From: an uncultured Bacteroidota bacterium
Lineage (GTDB): Bacteria > Bacteroidota > Bacteroidia > Flavobacteriales > Flavobacteriaceae
Reading direction: 5' to 3'
Assembly: GCA_902546725.1 (NCBI GenBank)
Contig: CACCLB010000001.1
Span: forward strand, 62,001 to 126,000
DNA: 64,000 bases
Shown piece by piece: positions 5,141-44,076 of the stretch. Position 1 is the first letter of the stretch; every line of letters begins with the position of its first letter. Made by a program: the position numbers and the translations under genes. The notes beneath the pieces are model-generated. The model saw nothing but the letters and a program-made list of their open reading frames with translations. It was not told the origin of the DNA and ran no database searches.

Positions 5141-6300
5141 AGCGCGCTTTTTCCATAAAAGCATCTGCATAAGCATCTCTAGACTGGGTTTTTCCAATAT
5201 ACTTTAAAAAAGTAGATTCCTTTGTATGACCAGTAATATGCATAAGTATCGGAGTCTCAATCTTACCAAAATAGTTTGTAGCAAATGAGCGTCTTAAATC
5301 ATGAGCAGTAAGAAGCTCCCATTTATGATACATGCCCAAAACTTTTCTTTTAGGCGCCTTAGATAGTTTATATCCCTTAACTATATCATCAATTCCGGCC
5401 TTTTCTGCCACCTGTTTTATTAGATAATTAAACTGCTGGGCATATAACGGTTTTGGAAAGTTTTCTTTGAGTAAAAAAATCACATCTGGATCAACTACAC
5501 CAACAGTTACAAACCGTGTTGTTTTTTGTTGGATTATATCCACATAAAGCCCTCCATTTTTTGATTCACGAATATTTTTAAGATCTAAAGAAAGCAAATC
5601 AGAAACCCGCTGACCAATGTATAAACCGATAAGCATCCATGCTCTAGCTGTTCGCTCTTTTGGTGTCAGACCCTTTACATTTTTAATTTTATAAATGTCC
5701 TCAGGCGTTAAAATCTGAAGATAGCGGTCCTTTTCCTGCTGGTTAAAACAACTGATATGCTCAGCATAATAATGCACTTTAACCCCTTTTTTTCTGGCCT
5801 CACTACAGATGGCTTATAGTAGTTTAAGGGTATTGGACGTATAATTAACGCTATAGTTCATCTCGCTCATCATCCAGCTAGTAAGTGACTCAACAAATTC
5901 TTTATTAATCTCTGAGAGTAAAATTGGCGCCCCACGATAACTTTCAAAAGCAGTTAAAATTCGTTTAAGCCCGCGATAGTTTCTAATGGTGTTTTCTTTA
6001 AGGCCCATCTCACCCCCAAAGCCTTTAACCCTAAAGGGAGCCTGCTCAATAAACTGATCGATTTGGAAAAGTATAAAATCTTGTTTGTCTTTTATTTTTC
6101 GATTAAATATTTGAGCGATTTGAATCTCAAGCCAATCACCATGGGCAATAAGTCCAGAGCCTCTGGAGAGATTATACGATTTAGTAAGATGGTCTTCAAG
6201 TTTATCAAGCAAATAATTAACCCGCTCACCACTAGTTGGACAGCATGATCGCTGAGTATAAACAGACCAAAATTCAGAACGGGTATAAAACCCGGTCTTG
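5130..6300 (-). pseudogene. Tyrosine recombinase/phage integrase (degraded)
   Basis: C-terminal catalytic half 5130..5777 (ARAWMLIGLYIGQRVSDLLSL, LTAHDLRRSFATNYFG, HITGHTKESTFLKYIG) and SAM-like half (5814..6212) lie in the same frame, separated by one TAA at 5814-5816. Coding-like sequence continues upstream of 6212 (KTGFYTRSEFWSVYTQRS) up to a likely frameshift near 6300. Confidence 0.85.
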
Positions 6301-6537
6301 CGCTAAATTTTTTGATTCTCACTGTTGTGAAAATAAACATAAATTGAAGCGTATTTTTCCCTGGATCGAATTCGAAAACCTATTTTTGTCATAACTTTTA
6401 TTTTTAACGTACAACTCCCCGATATTTCCCTTTGAATAAGGTGAATATTTTAAAATCGGCATATAAAAGATACGTTAAAAAAACCGTTATTTAACGCTAA
6501 AAGTGAGTAAAATAGAGGGTTTGCAGAGAAAAAGTTT

Positions 6538-38391: not shown

Positions 38392-38439
38392 AAAGTAACT
38401 CAGGGGTAGAGCATTATCCGCCAGAGGCGGATGAGGGTC
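38392..38439 (+). pseudogene. Truncated tRNA-Gly-like fragment
   Basis: AAAGTAACTCAGGGGTAGAGCAT..GAGGGTC matches tRNA-Gly 38467-38512, but the anticodon arm is replaced by ATCCGCC-AGA-GGCGGAT and the T-arm/3' acceptor is missing. Confidence 0.65.
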
Positions 38440-38463
38440 TTTTCAGGAGTTTGAAATAAAAAT

Positions 38464-38535
38464 GCGAAAGTAGCTCAGGGGTAGAGCATCACCTTGCCAA
38501 GGTGAGGGTCGCGGGTTCAAATCCCGTCTTTCGCT
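38464..38535 (+). tRNA. tRNA-Gly(GCC)
   Basis: GCGAAAG...CTTTCGC acceptor, CACCTTGCCAAGGTG anticodon arm, GCGGGTTCAAATCCCGT T-arm. Confidence 0.95.
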
Positions 38536-38544
38536 CTGTCGTTT

Positions 38545-38629
38545 GCTCGAGTGGTGGAATTGGTAGACACGTTGGACTTAAAATCCAATGACCATTGCGG
38601 TCGTGCGGGTTCAAGTCCCGCCTCGAGTA
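38545..38629 (+). tRNA. tRNA-Leu(TAA)
   Basis: GCTCGAG..CTCGAGT acceptor, TTGGACTTAAAATCCAA anticodon arm, long variable arm, GCGGGTTCAAGTCCCGC T-arm. Confidence 0.95.
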
Positions 38630-38630
38630 C
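38616..38630 (+). repeat. Left att-like copy TCCCGCCTCGAGTAC (within tRNA-Leu 3' end)
   Basis: Identical 15-mer at 42275-42289. Confidence 0.75.
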
Positions 38631-38636
38631 TTTAAG

Positions 38637-38679
38637 AATCCGTAACATATTGTTTTACATGACGTTGCGGATTTTTTTA
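38637..38679 (+). terminator. Terminator after tRNA-Leu (island side)
   Basis: AATCCGTAAC...GTTGCGGATT followed by a T tract. Confidence 0.6.
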
Positions 38680-38734
38680 TTTTCAAATGGCAACATATTG
38701 GCAACAAATCATCGTGTTTCATGATTATTTAAAG

Positions 38735-38832
38735 CTAAAACTTCTCAGGCACTCCTAATCCAAACACAGGGGTATGGGTTTTAGGAAACGGTTTTTCTAT
38801 TGGAACATGGGGATTGGGATTTGATATGTAAT
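38735..38832. repeat. Copy 1 of ~95-bp imperfect repeat
   Basis: ctaaaacttc..caggggtatgggttttaggaaacggtttttc..gatttgatatgtaat; partner at 40318-40413. Confidence 0.7.
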
Positions 38833-38915
38833 CTAATATTTCTAAATTCAGTTTTTAATTAATTAGATTGATTTTTAAAGTTCTTGAATTAAATTATTAG
38901 ATTTTTCATAAGCAA

Positions 38916-40289
38916 ATGGAATTTAAAACTAAAATAAAAGCTTTTTATGAGGATATAAGTAAAAAGAGCTACAATTCATTTGAAGATGCCAGAGAAGATG
39001 CTGCATTATTAGGGAAAAAACTATTTCTTTTTAAAGAATTTGATTTAAGAGGAACTGAAAATTTACCACAAGAATCGGGGATTATATTTATTTACAATCA
39101 TATTTCTAATAACCCAAACTATACTTTAGAAGATGATTTTCAAATCACACTTGACAGCCACTTTATAAGCAGTATGATTTCACAAAACTATTATAAAAAA
39201 CCTGGTGTTCGCATTATAAGATATAGCCTTGATAATGAAAAAAAGCATTCGGAATACTATAATTTATTTAATTATATCAGAGTTTACTCAAAAGACTTTA
39301 TACCAAATTATGTAACACAACAAGATCTTGAAGAATCTAAAAATATTTTTTATAGTTTATGCCACTCAGCCCTTTTGGAAAAAGAAAATTTAATTATTAA
39401 TCCAGAGGGAAAGTCATCAAGTACTAAAAATTCACCTTCAGATTTCAAGGCTGGGATTTTTAAAATGGTTATAAAATCACAATTAGATCCTCTAATAGTA
39501 CCACTAGTAATGGTAAATTTTGACTATCTCAACTCAGAAACTACTTACCGTTGTGAAATAAAAAAGCCTTTTAGACTGTCTTCTAAATTAAATGATTTAA
39601 AAAACAAAAAAGATTTAAATGATTTTGTAATATCATTTCAGGAAAAATATTCTTTGTGGGTTGATAATTTGAGAAAAGTAAGTTCAAGCTATGAAGATGA
39701 AATAAGATTATTAATTGAAAAGAAAATCAAACATTCACAAAGAAAAAATTTAATTGTTTTTTATGGCAGTTCAACTTTCAGACTGTGGGATAAAATTGAA
39801 AATGATTTCAGTCCCTTTAATGTATTGAATTTTGGATTTGGAGGTGCATATATTGAGGATTGCATAAAATACTTTGATTCATTATTTTTTGATTTAAATC
39901 CAAATGGAGTTGTGCTTTATGTTGGAGGAAATGATTTATCCCTGAACTATTCACCAAAAAAAATATTTAATCTTATCAAAAAACTCACAGAAAAATTTCA
40001 GACAAAACTACCTCAATGCAAATTATTCATTATTTCGATTAAACCGAGTTATCATAGGATTGAAAAGATGAAGCAAATTATTACCCTAAATCAAATGATA
40101 AAAAACTACTATGATAAATCTGACAGGGTGTTTTATGTCAATATTTTTGACTTATTTTTTGATCGCAGGAAGAAAATTATAAAAAAATATTACCTAATTG
40201 ACAATTTACACTTAAGTAGTGAAGGCTACTCTGTATGGAAAAGGGAAATTCAAAAATCAATTGTTAAAGAGTTAAATTATCTTATTTAA
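38916..40289 (+). CDS. Putative acyltransferase (PlsC-like) fused to SGNH/GDSL hydrolase domain
   Basis: N-term IIFIYNHISNNPNYTLEDDF..LIINPEGKSSSTKN..FKAGIFKMVIKSQLDPLIVPLVMV; C-term LIVFYGSSTFRLWDKIENDF..VLNFGFGGAYIEDCI..VVLYVGGNDLSLNYS..DNLHLSSEGYSVWK. Confidence 0.75.
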   Translation: MEFKTKIKAFYEDISKKSYNSFEDAREDAALLGKKLFLFKEFDLRGTENLPQESGIIFIYNHISNNPNYTLEDDFQITLDSHFISSMISQNYYKKPGVRIIRYSLDNEKKHSEYYNLFNYIRVYSKDFIPNYVTQQDLEESKNIFYSLCHSALLEKENLIINPEGKSSSTKNSPSDFKAGIFKMVIKSQLDPLIVPLVMVNFDYLNSETTYRCEIKKPFRLSSKLNDLKNKKDLNDFVISFQEKYSLWVDNLRKVSSSYEDEIRLLIEKKIKHSQRKNLIVFYGSSTFRLWDKIENDFSPFNVLNFGFGGAYIEDCIKYFDSLFFDLNPNGVVLYVGGNDLSLNYSPKKIFNLIKKLTEKFQTKLPQCKLFIISIKPSYHRIEKMKQIITLNQMIKNYYDKSDRVFYVNIFDLFFDRRKKIIKKYYLIDNLHLSSEGYSVWKREIQKSIVKELNYLI

Positions 40290-40317
40290 AACACATCATG
40301 TATTTGCTTAGAAAATA

Positions 40318-40413
40318 CTAAAACTTCAAAGCACCCTTAACCCAAAAACAGGGGCATGGGTTTTAGAAAACGGTTTTTCGATTGTAACAAGGATGGGAGA
40401 TTTGATATGTAAT
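40318..40413. repeat. Copy 2 of ~95-bp imperfect repeat
   Basis: ctaaaacttcaaagc..caggggcatgggttttagaaaacggtttttcg..gatttgatatgtaat. Confidence 0.7.
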
Positions 40414-40459
40414 ACATTCTCTATATCTTAGAGGTATTAATAACCATAAATAAATTATA

Positions 40460-41677
40460 ATGAAACTTTTTTTTATTCTATTCTTTAATTTATTAATGAT
40501 TCAGTGTCAAAACTCAAATTTCCAACAAGTTAGTTCTAGATGGTCAGAAGAAAAAATATGGAATTGGTATAACAATCAGCCTTGGCTTATAGGAACGAAT
40601 TTTATAACAAGTTCCTCAATAAATCAACTTGAATTTTGGCAAGAAAAAACTTTTGATCCGGATTTAATAGATAAAGAGTTAAAACTCTCTGCTAGTATTG
40701 GAATGAACACCCATAGAGTATTTCTCCATGATTTACTGTGGCAGCAAGATTCAATGGGGTTTCTGAGTCGTATTGACAAATTTTTAGAAATTTCACATAA
40801 AAATGGTATAAAAACATTACTTGTTTTTTTTGATGATGTTTGGCATCCTATGCCTAAGCTTGGTAAACAACCTGAACCAATACCACATGTACATAACTCA
40901 GGATGGGTTCAATCTCCAGGAGCAAAAATTTTATATGATTCTTTAAGCCACAACAAACTAAAATCTTATGTGAAAGGAATAATTGGAAAGTTTGCAAATG
41001 ATCAAAGAGTTCTTGGGTGGGATCTTTACAATGAACCTGGTCAAAAAGGCATATCTTCACATAATATTCCCAAGGAAAGATCAATAGAATTATATAAAAA
41101 AGTAGGGATTAAAATTACGGATAATAATTATTCGGAATACAATCTAAATGAAATTGATCCCAAAGACAAAAAGCAGAAGTATACTCTATCTTTATTAAAA
41201 TACACTGTGAAATGGGCTAGAGAAGTAAACCCGTCTCAACCACTAACGATCGGGATTTATGAGTGGGACATTAAATGGGACAGTATGAATAATTTATCTG
41301 AATTAAATCAATTTATACTTAATAACTCTGATATTATTTCTTTCCACTCATATGCGTCAAAAAAAGAGGTATTAAGAAAAGTTAATGAGCTTCAAAATTA
41401 TAATAGACCTATTTTGTGTACAGAGTATATTGCTCGAGAATACGAGAATACATTTGAGAACGTATTGCCGATTTTTAATGATAATAAAATTGGAGCTTAT
41501 AATTGGGGTTTAGTTTCTGGTAAGACTAATACTATATATCCATGGAAAAGTTGGGATTCAACATATACAGGTCCACCAAAGAAATGGCATCACGATATTT
41601 TTTATAAAGATGGGAAGCCATACTCTTCAGACGAAATAGAATTAATAAAAAGTTTATCATTATCTGGAACAAAATAA
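40460..41677 (+). CDS. GH5-like (cellulase-fold) glycoside hydrolase lipoprotein
   Basis: FFNLLMIQCQ lipobox; MNTHRVFLHDLLW, VLGWDLYNEPGQK (acid/base Glu), PILCTEYIARE (nucleophile Glu), YNWGLVSGKT. Confidence 0.78.
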   Translation: MKLFFILFFNLLMIQCQNSNFQQVSSRWSEEKIWNWYNNQPWLIGTNFITSSSINQLEFWQEKTFDPDLIDKELKLSASIGMNTHRVFLHDLLWQQDSMGFLSRIDKFLEISHKNGIKTLLVFFDDVWHPMPKLGKQPEPIPHVHNSGWVQSPGAKILYDSLSHNKLKSYVKGIIGKFANDQRVLGWDLYNEPGQKGISSHNIPKERSIELYKKVGIKITDNNYSEYNLNEIDPKDKKQKYTLSLLKYTVKWAREVNPSQPLTIGIYEWDIKWDSMNNLSELNQFILNNSDIISFHSYASKKEVLRKVNELQNYNRPILCTEYIAREYENTFENVLPIFNDNKIGAYNWGLVSGKTNTIYPWKSWDSTYTGPPKKWHHDIFYKDGKPYSSDEIELIKSLSLSGTK

Positions 41678-41949
41678 AAACTGTATAAAGGTGGATGGTT
41701 TTTCTTTTAAACCAATGGATATAATCCAAACCCTCTCTTATCCATTGCTATAACTTACCTAACCCGAGATGCTCTTACTACAAAATGGGGGTGGTTTGTT
41801 TAGGGTTTCTGTGGATACGCGATGGATCTTAGCTTTTATCCAAAAACATCTAAAATCACTTAAAAATGATCAAAAAACGCTAAAAATGAGTCGAAAATAG
41901 ATTAAAAATGGCTAAAAATGATCAAAAAACAGCTTTTTTTTAATTTCTG

Positions 41950-42129
41950 TCATAGAGACATTATATAATTATAAAAATCTTCAGTGACTCGAAACCAATA
42001 TCCGTTTTCTTCATGTAAGCTTCCATCACCTTTCCCATTACAAGAATGATACTTTTCTATATGGTTTTTAAAGGATTGCAAATCTGAAACCTTATAATCT
42101 TTACCGTAATCATCTTTTATAATTGTCAT
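41950..42129 (-). CDS. Small ORF (59 aa) not in the supplied ORF track
   Basis: MTIIKDDYGKDYKVSDLQSFKNHIEKYHSCNGKGDGSLHEENGYWFRVTEDFYNYIMSL*, read by hand from the minus strand. Confidence 0.45.
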   Translation of the reverse strand: MTIIKDDYGKDYKVSDLQSFKNHIEKYHSCNGKGDGSLHEENGYWFRVTEDFYNYIMSL

Positions 42130-42274
42130 CTACCCTTTGTATTTGTAATAAGCAACTTTTCCTTCCCACCAGTCATATAGATTTATTTAATACCTTCTGT
42201 AAAGTATTGTAAATAATAAGTTATACAGCTAAATATGGTAAGATCGTCAAAGCGCATGTTTGCATAGGCGGTAC

Positions 42275-42289
42275 TCCCGCCTCGAGTAC
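42275..42289 (+). repeat. Right att-like copy TCCCGCCTCGAGTAC (orphan tRNA-Leu 3' end)
   Basis: Exact 15-nt match to 38616-38630, immediately followed by a strong terminator. Confidence 0.75.
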
Positions 42290-42295
42290 AAAAAA

Positions 42296-42317
42296 CCCTC
42301 CTATTGGAGGGTTTTTT
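42296..42317 (+). terminator. Rho-independent terminator
   Basis: CCCTCC-TATT-GGAGGG-TTTTTT. Confidence 0.9.
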
Positions 42318-43548: not shown

Positions 43549-44076
43549 TTAGTTTTCTTCAACCGTTTGAGCTTGATATAGTGCAATCTCTTTGAAGAGT
43601 TCGGTGGGGTCCAAATAGCATTTTGTACTTACAATTTTATCTCCTTCCCATTGCCACCAGCAGTGGAACGTGTTTTTTTGAACTTCACCAGTGATTTTTG
43701 ATGTTCCAGACCAGTCTAACCAATGATTGGTATAAACCTCACCATTGTTGTAGTACATGGTTGTTATCATGGGATTTACGTGTTTTAAATTATCATATAA
43801 AACGGAATGAAAATTATATCCATCAATGATTTCGTCAGTAGTGTATTCTATATTTTTAAAATAATGTTTACCGTCGGGTGTAAAGTATTCTCTTGCGATT
43901 TCAAAATTTCCATCTTGATAACCTTGGGCTAATTTTCTGACGGCTTCTGATTTTTCATCACTTTGATTTATGGTTCCACTAAAAGGAGCTGAGTTGATAG
44001 CGTTTACTTCGCCGTTTTGACATCCTATTATAAGGGTACTTAATACTAAAAGGGTAACTAGTTTTTTCGTTTGAAT
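43549..44076 (-). CDS. NTF2/SnoaL-like lipoprotein, start codon uncertain (listed ORF 43549..43770 is only the C-terminal part)
   Basis: The same frame reads upstream QTKKLVTLLVLSTLIIGCQNGEVNAINSAPFSGTINQSDEKSEAVRKLAQGYQDGNFEIAREYFTPDGKHYFKNIEYTTDEIIDGYNFHSVLYDNLKHVNP-MITTMYYNNGEVYTNHW; lipobox IIGC; only ATT (44074-44076) is available as a non-canonical start before the stop at 44086-44088. Confidence 0.55.
   Translation of the reverse strand: MQTKKLVTLLVLSTLIIGCQNGEVNAINSAPFSGTINQSDEKSEAVRKLAQGYQDGNFEIAREYFTPDGKHYFKNIEYTTDEIIDGYNFHSVLYDNLKHVNPMITTMYYNNGEVYTNHWLDWSGTSKITGEVQKNTFHCWWQWEGDKIVSTKCYLDPTELFKEIALYQAQTVEEN

Follow-up and report, generated by a model that had tools for sequence, protein, structure and literature searches.

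The locus examined here raises a simple question: how did a second copy of the 3' end of an intact tRNA-Leu(TAA) gene come to lie several kilobases downstream, and what is the DNA in between? It lies in a 64,000-nt stretch (hereafter, the window) of contig CACCLB010000001.1 from an uncultured member of the Flavobacteriaceae. In our assessment, with a probability of roughly 0.82, positions 38631-42289 are a tRNA-Leu(TAA) island that derives from a tyrosine-integrase element, no longer carries the integrase, and holds a two-gene stretch of a cassette array whose genes are exchanged across the genus. The case for an integrase-less tRNA-Leu island rests on a unique core duplication, the presence of both empty and occupied sites in relatives, and a right end that is homologous to that of a related element and lacks an integrase. 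Taken alone, the island is of a common type; the surrounding cassette-array context, defined by two repeats that we term R1 and R2, appears to be new.

The preliminary description of this DNA had proposed an exact 15-nt duplication of the tRNA-Leu 3' end as the boundary of a small island. The 15-mer TCCCGCCTCGAGTAC is indeed present at 38616-38630, within the tRNA-Leu gene, and again 3,659 bp downstream at 42275-42289. Allowing up to two mismatches, neither the window (0.01 matches expected) nor the entire 1.70-Mb assembly of this organism contains any further match, which disposes of the concern that the 15-mer might be a common dispersed sequence. ARAGORN delineates tRNA-Leu(TAA) at 38545-38630, preceded by tRNA-Gly(GCC) at 38464-38536, and an Rfam search of the flanks recovered the tRNA alone, with all other matches under their gathering scores. 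The distal copy directly abuts AAAAAACCCTCCTATTGGAGGGTTTTTT, which folds into a strong terminator (-17.9 kcal/mol, z -5.5 against shuffled sequences), while another terminator, AAGAATCCGTAAC..GTTGCGGATTTTTTT (-15.6 kcal/mol, z -4.6), stands behind the intact tRNA-Leu. Both fold considerably better than their shuffles, in keeping with the suggestion that the original terminator of the tRNA operon now stands behind the displaced fragment.

Comparison with other members of the genus supports insertion at this tRNA. All genomes used are metagenome-assembled (MAGs) or single-amplified genomes (SAGs), the organism's own being 75% and G023 98% complete, and the loci were partly selected by the motifs under study. 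Six genus members (G001, G002, G004, G008, G015, and G024) carry a simple terminator directly 3' of tRNA-Leu, so that the 3.66-kb segment is not shared by all relatives. In one of these island-free genomes, G002, a homolog of the window's 73-aa gene (43549-43770) lies about 110 bp after tRNA-Leu, and homologs of the HAD and esterase genes come next, in the same order as in the window. The suggested search for the same attachment site with different cargo was also productive: four genomes (G011, G017, G022, and G023) share the window's left junction at tRNA-Leu(TAA) but carry other genes, including an acetyltransferase, SnoaL-like genes, and a gene that by eye resembles DUF2237. In G003, G010, and G018, the element-type terminator alone remains. 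These empty, differently occupied, and terminator-only states identify the tRNA-Leu site as an insertion hot spot. The alignment with relatives that the preliminary description had called for yielded island-free tRNA-Leu loci within the genus, but no uninterrupted example of the exact tRNA-CCCTCCTATTGGAGGG junction.

The ends of the island connect it to a family of elements. Its left end has a fixed order, namely tRNA, terminator (A)ATCCGTAAC..GTTGCGGATTTTTT, arm repeat TGGCAACATATTGGCAACAAAT, and R1, and this module recurs after tRNA-Leu(TAA), tRNA-Leu(CAA), and tRNA-Met, with a modified form after tRNA-Asp. In four related loci (L101, L108, L109, and L113), TGGCAACATATTGGCAACAAAT is also found at the opposite end, about 150-200 bp before the displaced tRNA fragment. 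One of them, L108, encodes a 419-aa tyrosine integrase (integrase A; PF00589 8e-15, PF13102 4e-9), which begins about 19 bp from the arm repeat near the right end and points inward; an RteC identity for the gene beside integrase A was not supported. An arm-like match elsewhere in the organism's own genome (C4:16868) was judged a chance occurrence on account of its 3 mismatches and its position within coding sequence. Homology links the right end in the window to that of L113, an element from G020 that retains an integrase remnant (75% identity over 93 bp, BLASTN E 3e-15); the local score of 65 was reached by 0/2000 shuffled sequences, the highest of which scored 33. This right end has neither arm repeat nor integrase, and a profile search found no PF00589 match between the two core copies, in agreement with the earlier remark that the island carries none. 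Two loci show the route by which the integrase is lost: in L101 (790-1699), a deletion has joined its N-terminus in frame with the C-terminal portion of a sulfatase, and in L113 the gene breaks off at an R2 repeat close to codon 12. Since relatives keep the integrase at the same type of right end and intermediate stages of loss exist, the view of the locus as a decayed or nonautonomous element is supported.

The same displaced-terminator logic is found independently at another tRNA. In G010, a second integrase (B) adjoins its own arm repeat B, TTGTACGGTATTTGTACGG; beyond this repeat come a right end, a fragment of the tRNA-Ser 3' end (CTCTTTCTCCGC), and a terminator that in G018 sits directly 3' of the intact tRNA-Ser(TGA). 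Islands that contain R1 and lie behind tRNA-Ser and tRNA-Ala likewise have arm repeat B in their left ends, so that R1 is common to islands of two different integrase specificities. Separately, the tRNA-Arg elements L106 and L114 appear reversed relative to the tRNA, with the right end abutting it. The window itself contains, at 5154-6392 (-), a broken tyrosine integrase that is 33% identical to integrase A and interrupted by an internal TAG and TAA; it adjoins polysaccharide and glycosyltransferase-like genes and represents a further decayed element, whose integrase falls in the same broad family as integrase A.

We propose that a tyrosine integrase inserted an element at the 3' end of tRNA-Leu(TAA), duplicating the 15-nt core. 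The element would have restored the tRNA end and brought its own terminator, pushing the original one 3.66 kb downstream. It belongs to an element family of the marine Flavobacteriaceae clade MS024-2A whose left end, and right end when intact, bears an arm repeat, and whose full versions encode the integrase just inside the right end. The present copy has lost both the integrase and the right arm site, and so would be a fossil, or mobile only with an integrase acting in trans; the junction of an excised circle (attP) is predicted as ...GTTTGCATAGGCGGTAC-TCCCGCCTCGAGTAC-TTTAAGAATCC. Its interior is a two-gene stretch of a genus-wide cassette array, whose single genes are most likely exchanged through their repeated flanks. 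Integrase A probably catalyzed this insertion, and the copy as it stands is likely immobile.

Action in trans is central to one alternative, according to which the island is a nonautonomous satellite whose ends are recombined by integrase A and which is packaged or mobilized by a helper, in the manner of tycheposons or phage satellites. The identical cores, the intact left end with its arm repeat, the integrase-A-like genes of some relatives, and the recurrence of the same left module at several tRNAs are all compatible with such a lifestyle. However, the window's right end has no right arm repeat, of the two integrase-A-like matches in the organism's own genome, one is interrupted by stops and the other covers a short C-terminal stretch, and no helper-phage packaging gene is present in the island. 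Moreover, neither the arm repeat nor R2 has a match in IMG/VR viral contigs, on which ground a viral origin of these sequences was also rejected. We therefore consider a satellite possible but unlikely, and retain the decayed integrase element as the preferred reading.

Three open reading frames (ORFs) lie between the cores (Table 1). The fusion of PlsC-like and SGNH domains reported for gene 1 is supported by Pfam for both parts; a homolog with 81% nucleotide identity adjoins another cassette gene and an R2 copy in G011, and paralogs of about 55% identity are found elsewhere. For gene 2, described earlier as GH5-like, no sequence match was detected in Pfam, NCBIfam, or the PDB, and a fold search was used instead. 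Its AlphaFold model, of moderate quality (predicted local distance difference test 63, predicted template modeling score 0.72), matches GH5/clan-A glycosidases in the PDB, including beta-mannanases, with E 7e-9, and the NE motif (N191-E192) and E322 are invariant. The minus-strand 59-aa ORF was found as described and belongs to a small family with a second copy in the organism's own genome (G000:C3:20149-20325 (-)); a 61-aa version is present in some of the genus members without an R1 or R2 match. Outside the island, a partial, degenerate tRNA-Gly-like copy (38392-38462; 23 nt at 96%) lies just upstream of the intact tRNA-Gly.

Table 1. Features of the tRNA-Leu(TAA) island and its boundaries (window coordinates)
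Feature	Position	Strand	Basis
tRNA-Leu(TAA), insertion target; left core copy formed by its final 15 nt (38616-38630)	38545..38630	+	ARAGORN, Rfam tRNA, 15-mer search
Element-borne terminator, in place of the displaced native one	38634..38676	+	Fold; same module after Leu(TAA), Leu(CAA), and Met tRNAs in relatives
Arm-type repeat TGGCAACATATTGGCAACAAAT, left end; putative integrase-binding site	38688..38709	+	Same repeat ~19 bp before integrase A start in L108
R1, tRNA-proximal; ends with -33 box TTTG at 38820 (Bacteroidetes-type promoter)	38735..38832	+	nhmmer; starts 105 bp after tRNA
Gene 1: PlsC-like acyltransferase + SGNH/GDSL hydrolase fusion, 457 aa	38916..40289	+	Pfam Acyltransferase 1e-7, Lipase_GDSL_2 2e-11
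Second R1; -33 box at 40401	40318..40413	+	nhmmer
Gene 2: predicted secreted GH5/clan-A-like glycoside hydrolase, 405 aa	40460..41677	+	Predicted structure; invariant residues
R2 type A, 3' of gene 2; hidden Markov model core 41695-41809	41685..41845	+	nhmmer
Low-complexity tail, AAAAATGATCAAAAAACGCTAAAAATGAG type	41846..41940	.	Similar tails after type-A R2 in L208, L209
59-aa ORF	41950..42129	-	Small family, 9/38 genus genomes
Right end	42177..42268	+	Homologous to right end of L113, element with integrase remnant in G020
Displaced 15-nt tRNA-Leu 3'-end fragment, right core copy	42275..42289	+	15-mer search
Native tRNA-operon terminator, displaced	42290..42317	+	Fold; corresponds in position to the terminator just 3' of tRNA-Leu in island-free genomes

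Stretches of island sequence recur within the organism's own genome at 75-89% identity and resolve into R1 (~96 bp) and R2 (~117 bp), copies of which were located with nhmmer. By eye, the sequence before the second R1 resembles a degenerate left end minus the arm repeats, giving the layout left end, R1, gene 1, degenerate left end/R1, gene 2, type-A R2, 59-aa ORF, right end, and core. Across the genus, R1 and R2 separate small single genes in arrays of mostly one orientation, with cargo that includes SnoaL-like, acetyltransferase, methyltransferase, beta-lactamase-fold, and glycoside-hydrolase genes. The standard intergenic unit consists of a terminator CCCTCCCAAGCGGAGGGTTTTTCTTTTACACC, an optional R2 (or R2 + R1), a leader CATTCTCTATATCTTAGAGGTATTATTAACCATAAATCAATTAAA, and the ATG; each cassette gene has its own leader and promoter and usually its own terminator. 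R1 is the tRNA-proximal repeat: 7 of 30 full-length copies, against 0 of 41 for R2, have a tRNA no more than 200 bp upstream. The distance from tRNA to R1 is 105-109 bp in arm-A islands at the Leu and Met2 sites, 130 bp at one Met site, 158 bp at Asp, and 84-94 bp at the Ser and Ala tRNAs. The promoter pattern TTTG-N19-TAnnTT is present in 40 of 62 leaders and in none at two control spacings, with TTTG falling in R1 or type-B R2, from which we infer that both repeats supply promoter halves, the -33 box being placed in the repeat beside the gene. R2 also occurs after last genes and beside inverted genes.

The repeats are confined largely to this genus. Among 297 other genomes of the order, R2 plus leader returned just three partial matches of 29-35 bp to leader or terminator, ruling out R1/R2 as widespread flavobacterial repeats. 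Within the genus, no R1 or R2 match was detected in G009, G010, G018, G024, G043, G044, or G052, suggesting gain or loss of the array system. Two further arrangements were observed in the arrays. In L208 (4268-5868; G003:C9), a 376-aa cassette gene lies between R2 copies in inverted or hybrid orientation, suggestive of inversion between R2 sites, and a third recurring intergenic sequence, ATCGGCATATCC..CTTCATTAAGT..TTTGTATATTGTTG, is present in L180 (1624-2261) and L209 (1697-2153).

Cassette genes are shared between species at identities far above those of the sampled core DNA. The organism's own cassettes match those of G001 at 95.9% over 1,518 bp (core 72.6%), G045 at 96.2% over 993 bp (core 73.3%), and G023 at 95.1% over 788 bp (core 72.5-76.3%); more generally, cassette genes are 94-99.9% identical in differing neighborhoods across species whose sampled core is at ~73%. 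In the informative alignments, identity usually drops a few tens of bases before the start codon and just past the terminator, and the R1/R2 copies flanking near-identical genes are mostly at paralog-level identity, as though the recombination site did not travel with the gene. The pair G023-G049 retains ~90 bp of upstream sequence, and breakpoints are accordingly not fixed. That breakpoints fall in the flanks and R2 does not co-travel favors homologous recombination over a site-specific reaction carrying R2. Our preferred, as yet unproven, interpretation is therefore that homologous recombination within the repeated flanks exchanges single genes among arrays, sites, and species.

Several observations weigh against this overall reconstruction. 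The empty sites come from other genus members, with no island-free genome of the same species at hand, and at the other occupied tRNAs of the sampled loci there is no exact displaced 3' fragment of at least 11 nt, so that intact two-ended elements are rare. Given MAG and SAG data, misbinning of some short array contigs is possible, although longer contigs (139 kb, 163 kb, and 1.13 Mb) carry shared genes as well. Finally, the breakpoints derive from few pairwise comparisons and are inexact in position within repetitive flanks, and in several of these the global aligner left one or both flanks unaligned and hence uninformative.

The arrays also invite an integron-like reading, in which R1 acts as an attI-like and R2 as an attC-like site, a site-specific recombinase inserts the cassettes, and the tRNA island is a mere carrier. 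The tRNA-proximal bias of R1, the arrays of single, small, mostly co-oriented genes, the 993-bp shared stretch, which spans R1 to R2, and the possible inversion of R2 copies around the gene in L208 all fit such a platform. Against it, no integron integrase (TIGR02249) scored above the cut-off in any of 31 genus genomes, and 40 copies of R2 gave an RNAalifold consensus of 0.0 kcal/mol on both strands; together, these results rule out an attC identity for R2. In addition, highly identical genes arrive without their R2 at varying breakpoints, and in G023 and G045, both of which have arrays, PF00589 genes number just two per genome, at the score levels of XerC and XerD. We regard an integron-like platform as doubtful, and to a similar degree a capture system distinct from integrons, in which tRNA-anchored arrays with R1 as primary and R2 as spacer site and with split promoters would be served by a non-integron recombinase acting on double-stranded sites. 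Less probable still is that R1 and R2 are solely the regulatory repeats of an old regulon whose genes are static and vertically inherited: the exact spacing of the -33 box agrees with this, but the high identity of genes in differing neighborhoods does not, and R2 copies after last genes or beside inverted genes cannot be their promoters. A reading of the 15-nt repeat as mere coincidence or as a local duplication, marking no island boundary, is barely credible, since, short as the repeat is, it is unique in the genome, its neighboring sequences match known element ends, and island-free relatives exist.

With both ends surviving, the island is a useful fossil of the process that we favor, namely integrase-mediated insertion followed by decay around exchangeable cassettes. 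If correct, uncultured, small-genome marine Flavobacteriaceae would store and exchange single accessory genes behind tRNAs in a standardized way, with no integron integrase. This would provide a concrete mechanism for flexible-genome variation, one that predicts the location, promoter, and boundaries of new genes. No description of an R1/R2 system was found in the literature searched, which was mainly open-access; one tRNA-Arg-adjacent variable region has been described in marine Flavobacteriaceae in a Gulf of Maine study (PMC4164334).

Among known systems, integrons and clusters of attC sites lacking integron-integrases (CALINs; PMC11389934) similarly line up single accessory genes in arrays, mostly in one orientation and separated by repeated sites, and share them across species. 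They differ in that the arrays described here have no integron integrase and no attC fold, and instead have tRNA-anchored sites, their own promoters, and usually their own terminators. These arrays should accordingly not be classed as integrons or CALINs, although they may work alike in gene storage. The Islander definition of tRNA islands requires an integrase (PMC4383910); our island shares the intact tRNA, the co-oriented displaced 3' fragment, and a spacing within 2-200 kb, but has no integrase inside and an interior of standardized single-gene cassettes. NBU1 and MTnPi4, integrative and mobilizable elements of Bacteroidetes, use the tRNA-Leu 3' end (PMC5704250), a target-site class shared with our island, as is a tyrosine integrase, here in relatives. 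Unlike NBU1-type elements, the 3.7-kb island has lost its integrase and has no mobilization genes, with no relaxase among its three ORFs. The 10K genomic island at tRNA-Arg in Riemerella anatipestifer (PMC6764341) likewise has a tyrosine integrase gene beside its attachment site and direct repeats by the tRNA; it has its own 53-bp repeats, 12 ORFs, and a functional integrase, with no cassette array reported. A further parallel is with tycheposons, tRNA-anchored marine elements (PMC10872708, PMC11389934) that also reside in small-genome marine bacteria, use an anchor from a set of tRNAs, carry cargo, and encode a tyrosine recombinase in full copies. Here, the tRNA anchor is present in our island and the recombinase in relatives only, and what sets the present system apart is its short single-gene cassettes, its common R1/R2 flanks, and its two interchangeable arm-repeat modules.

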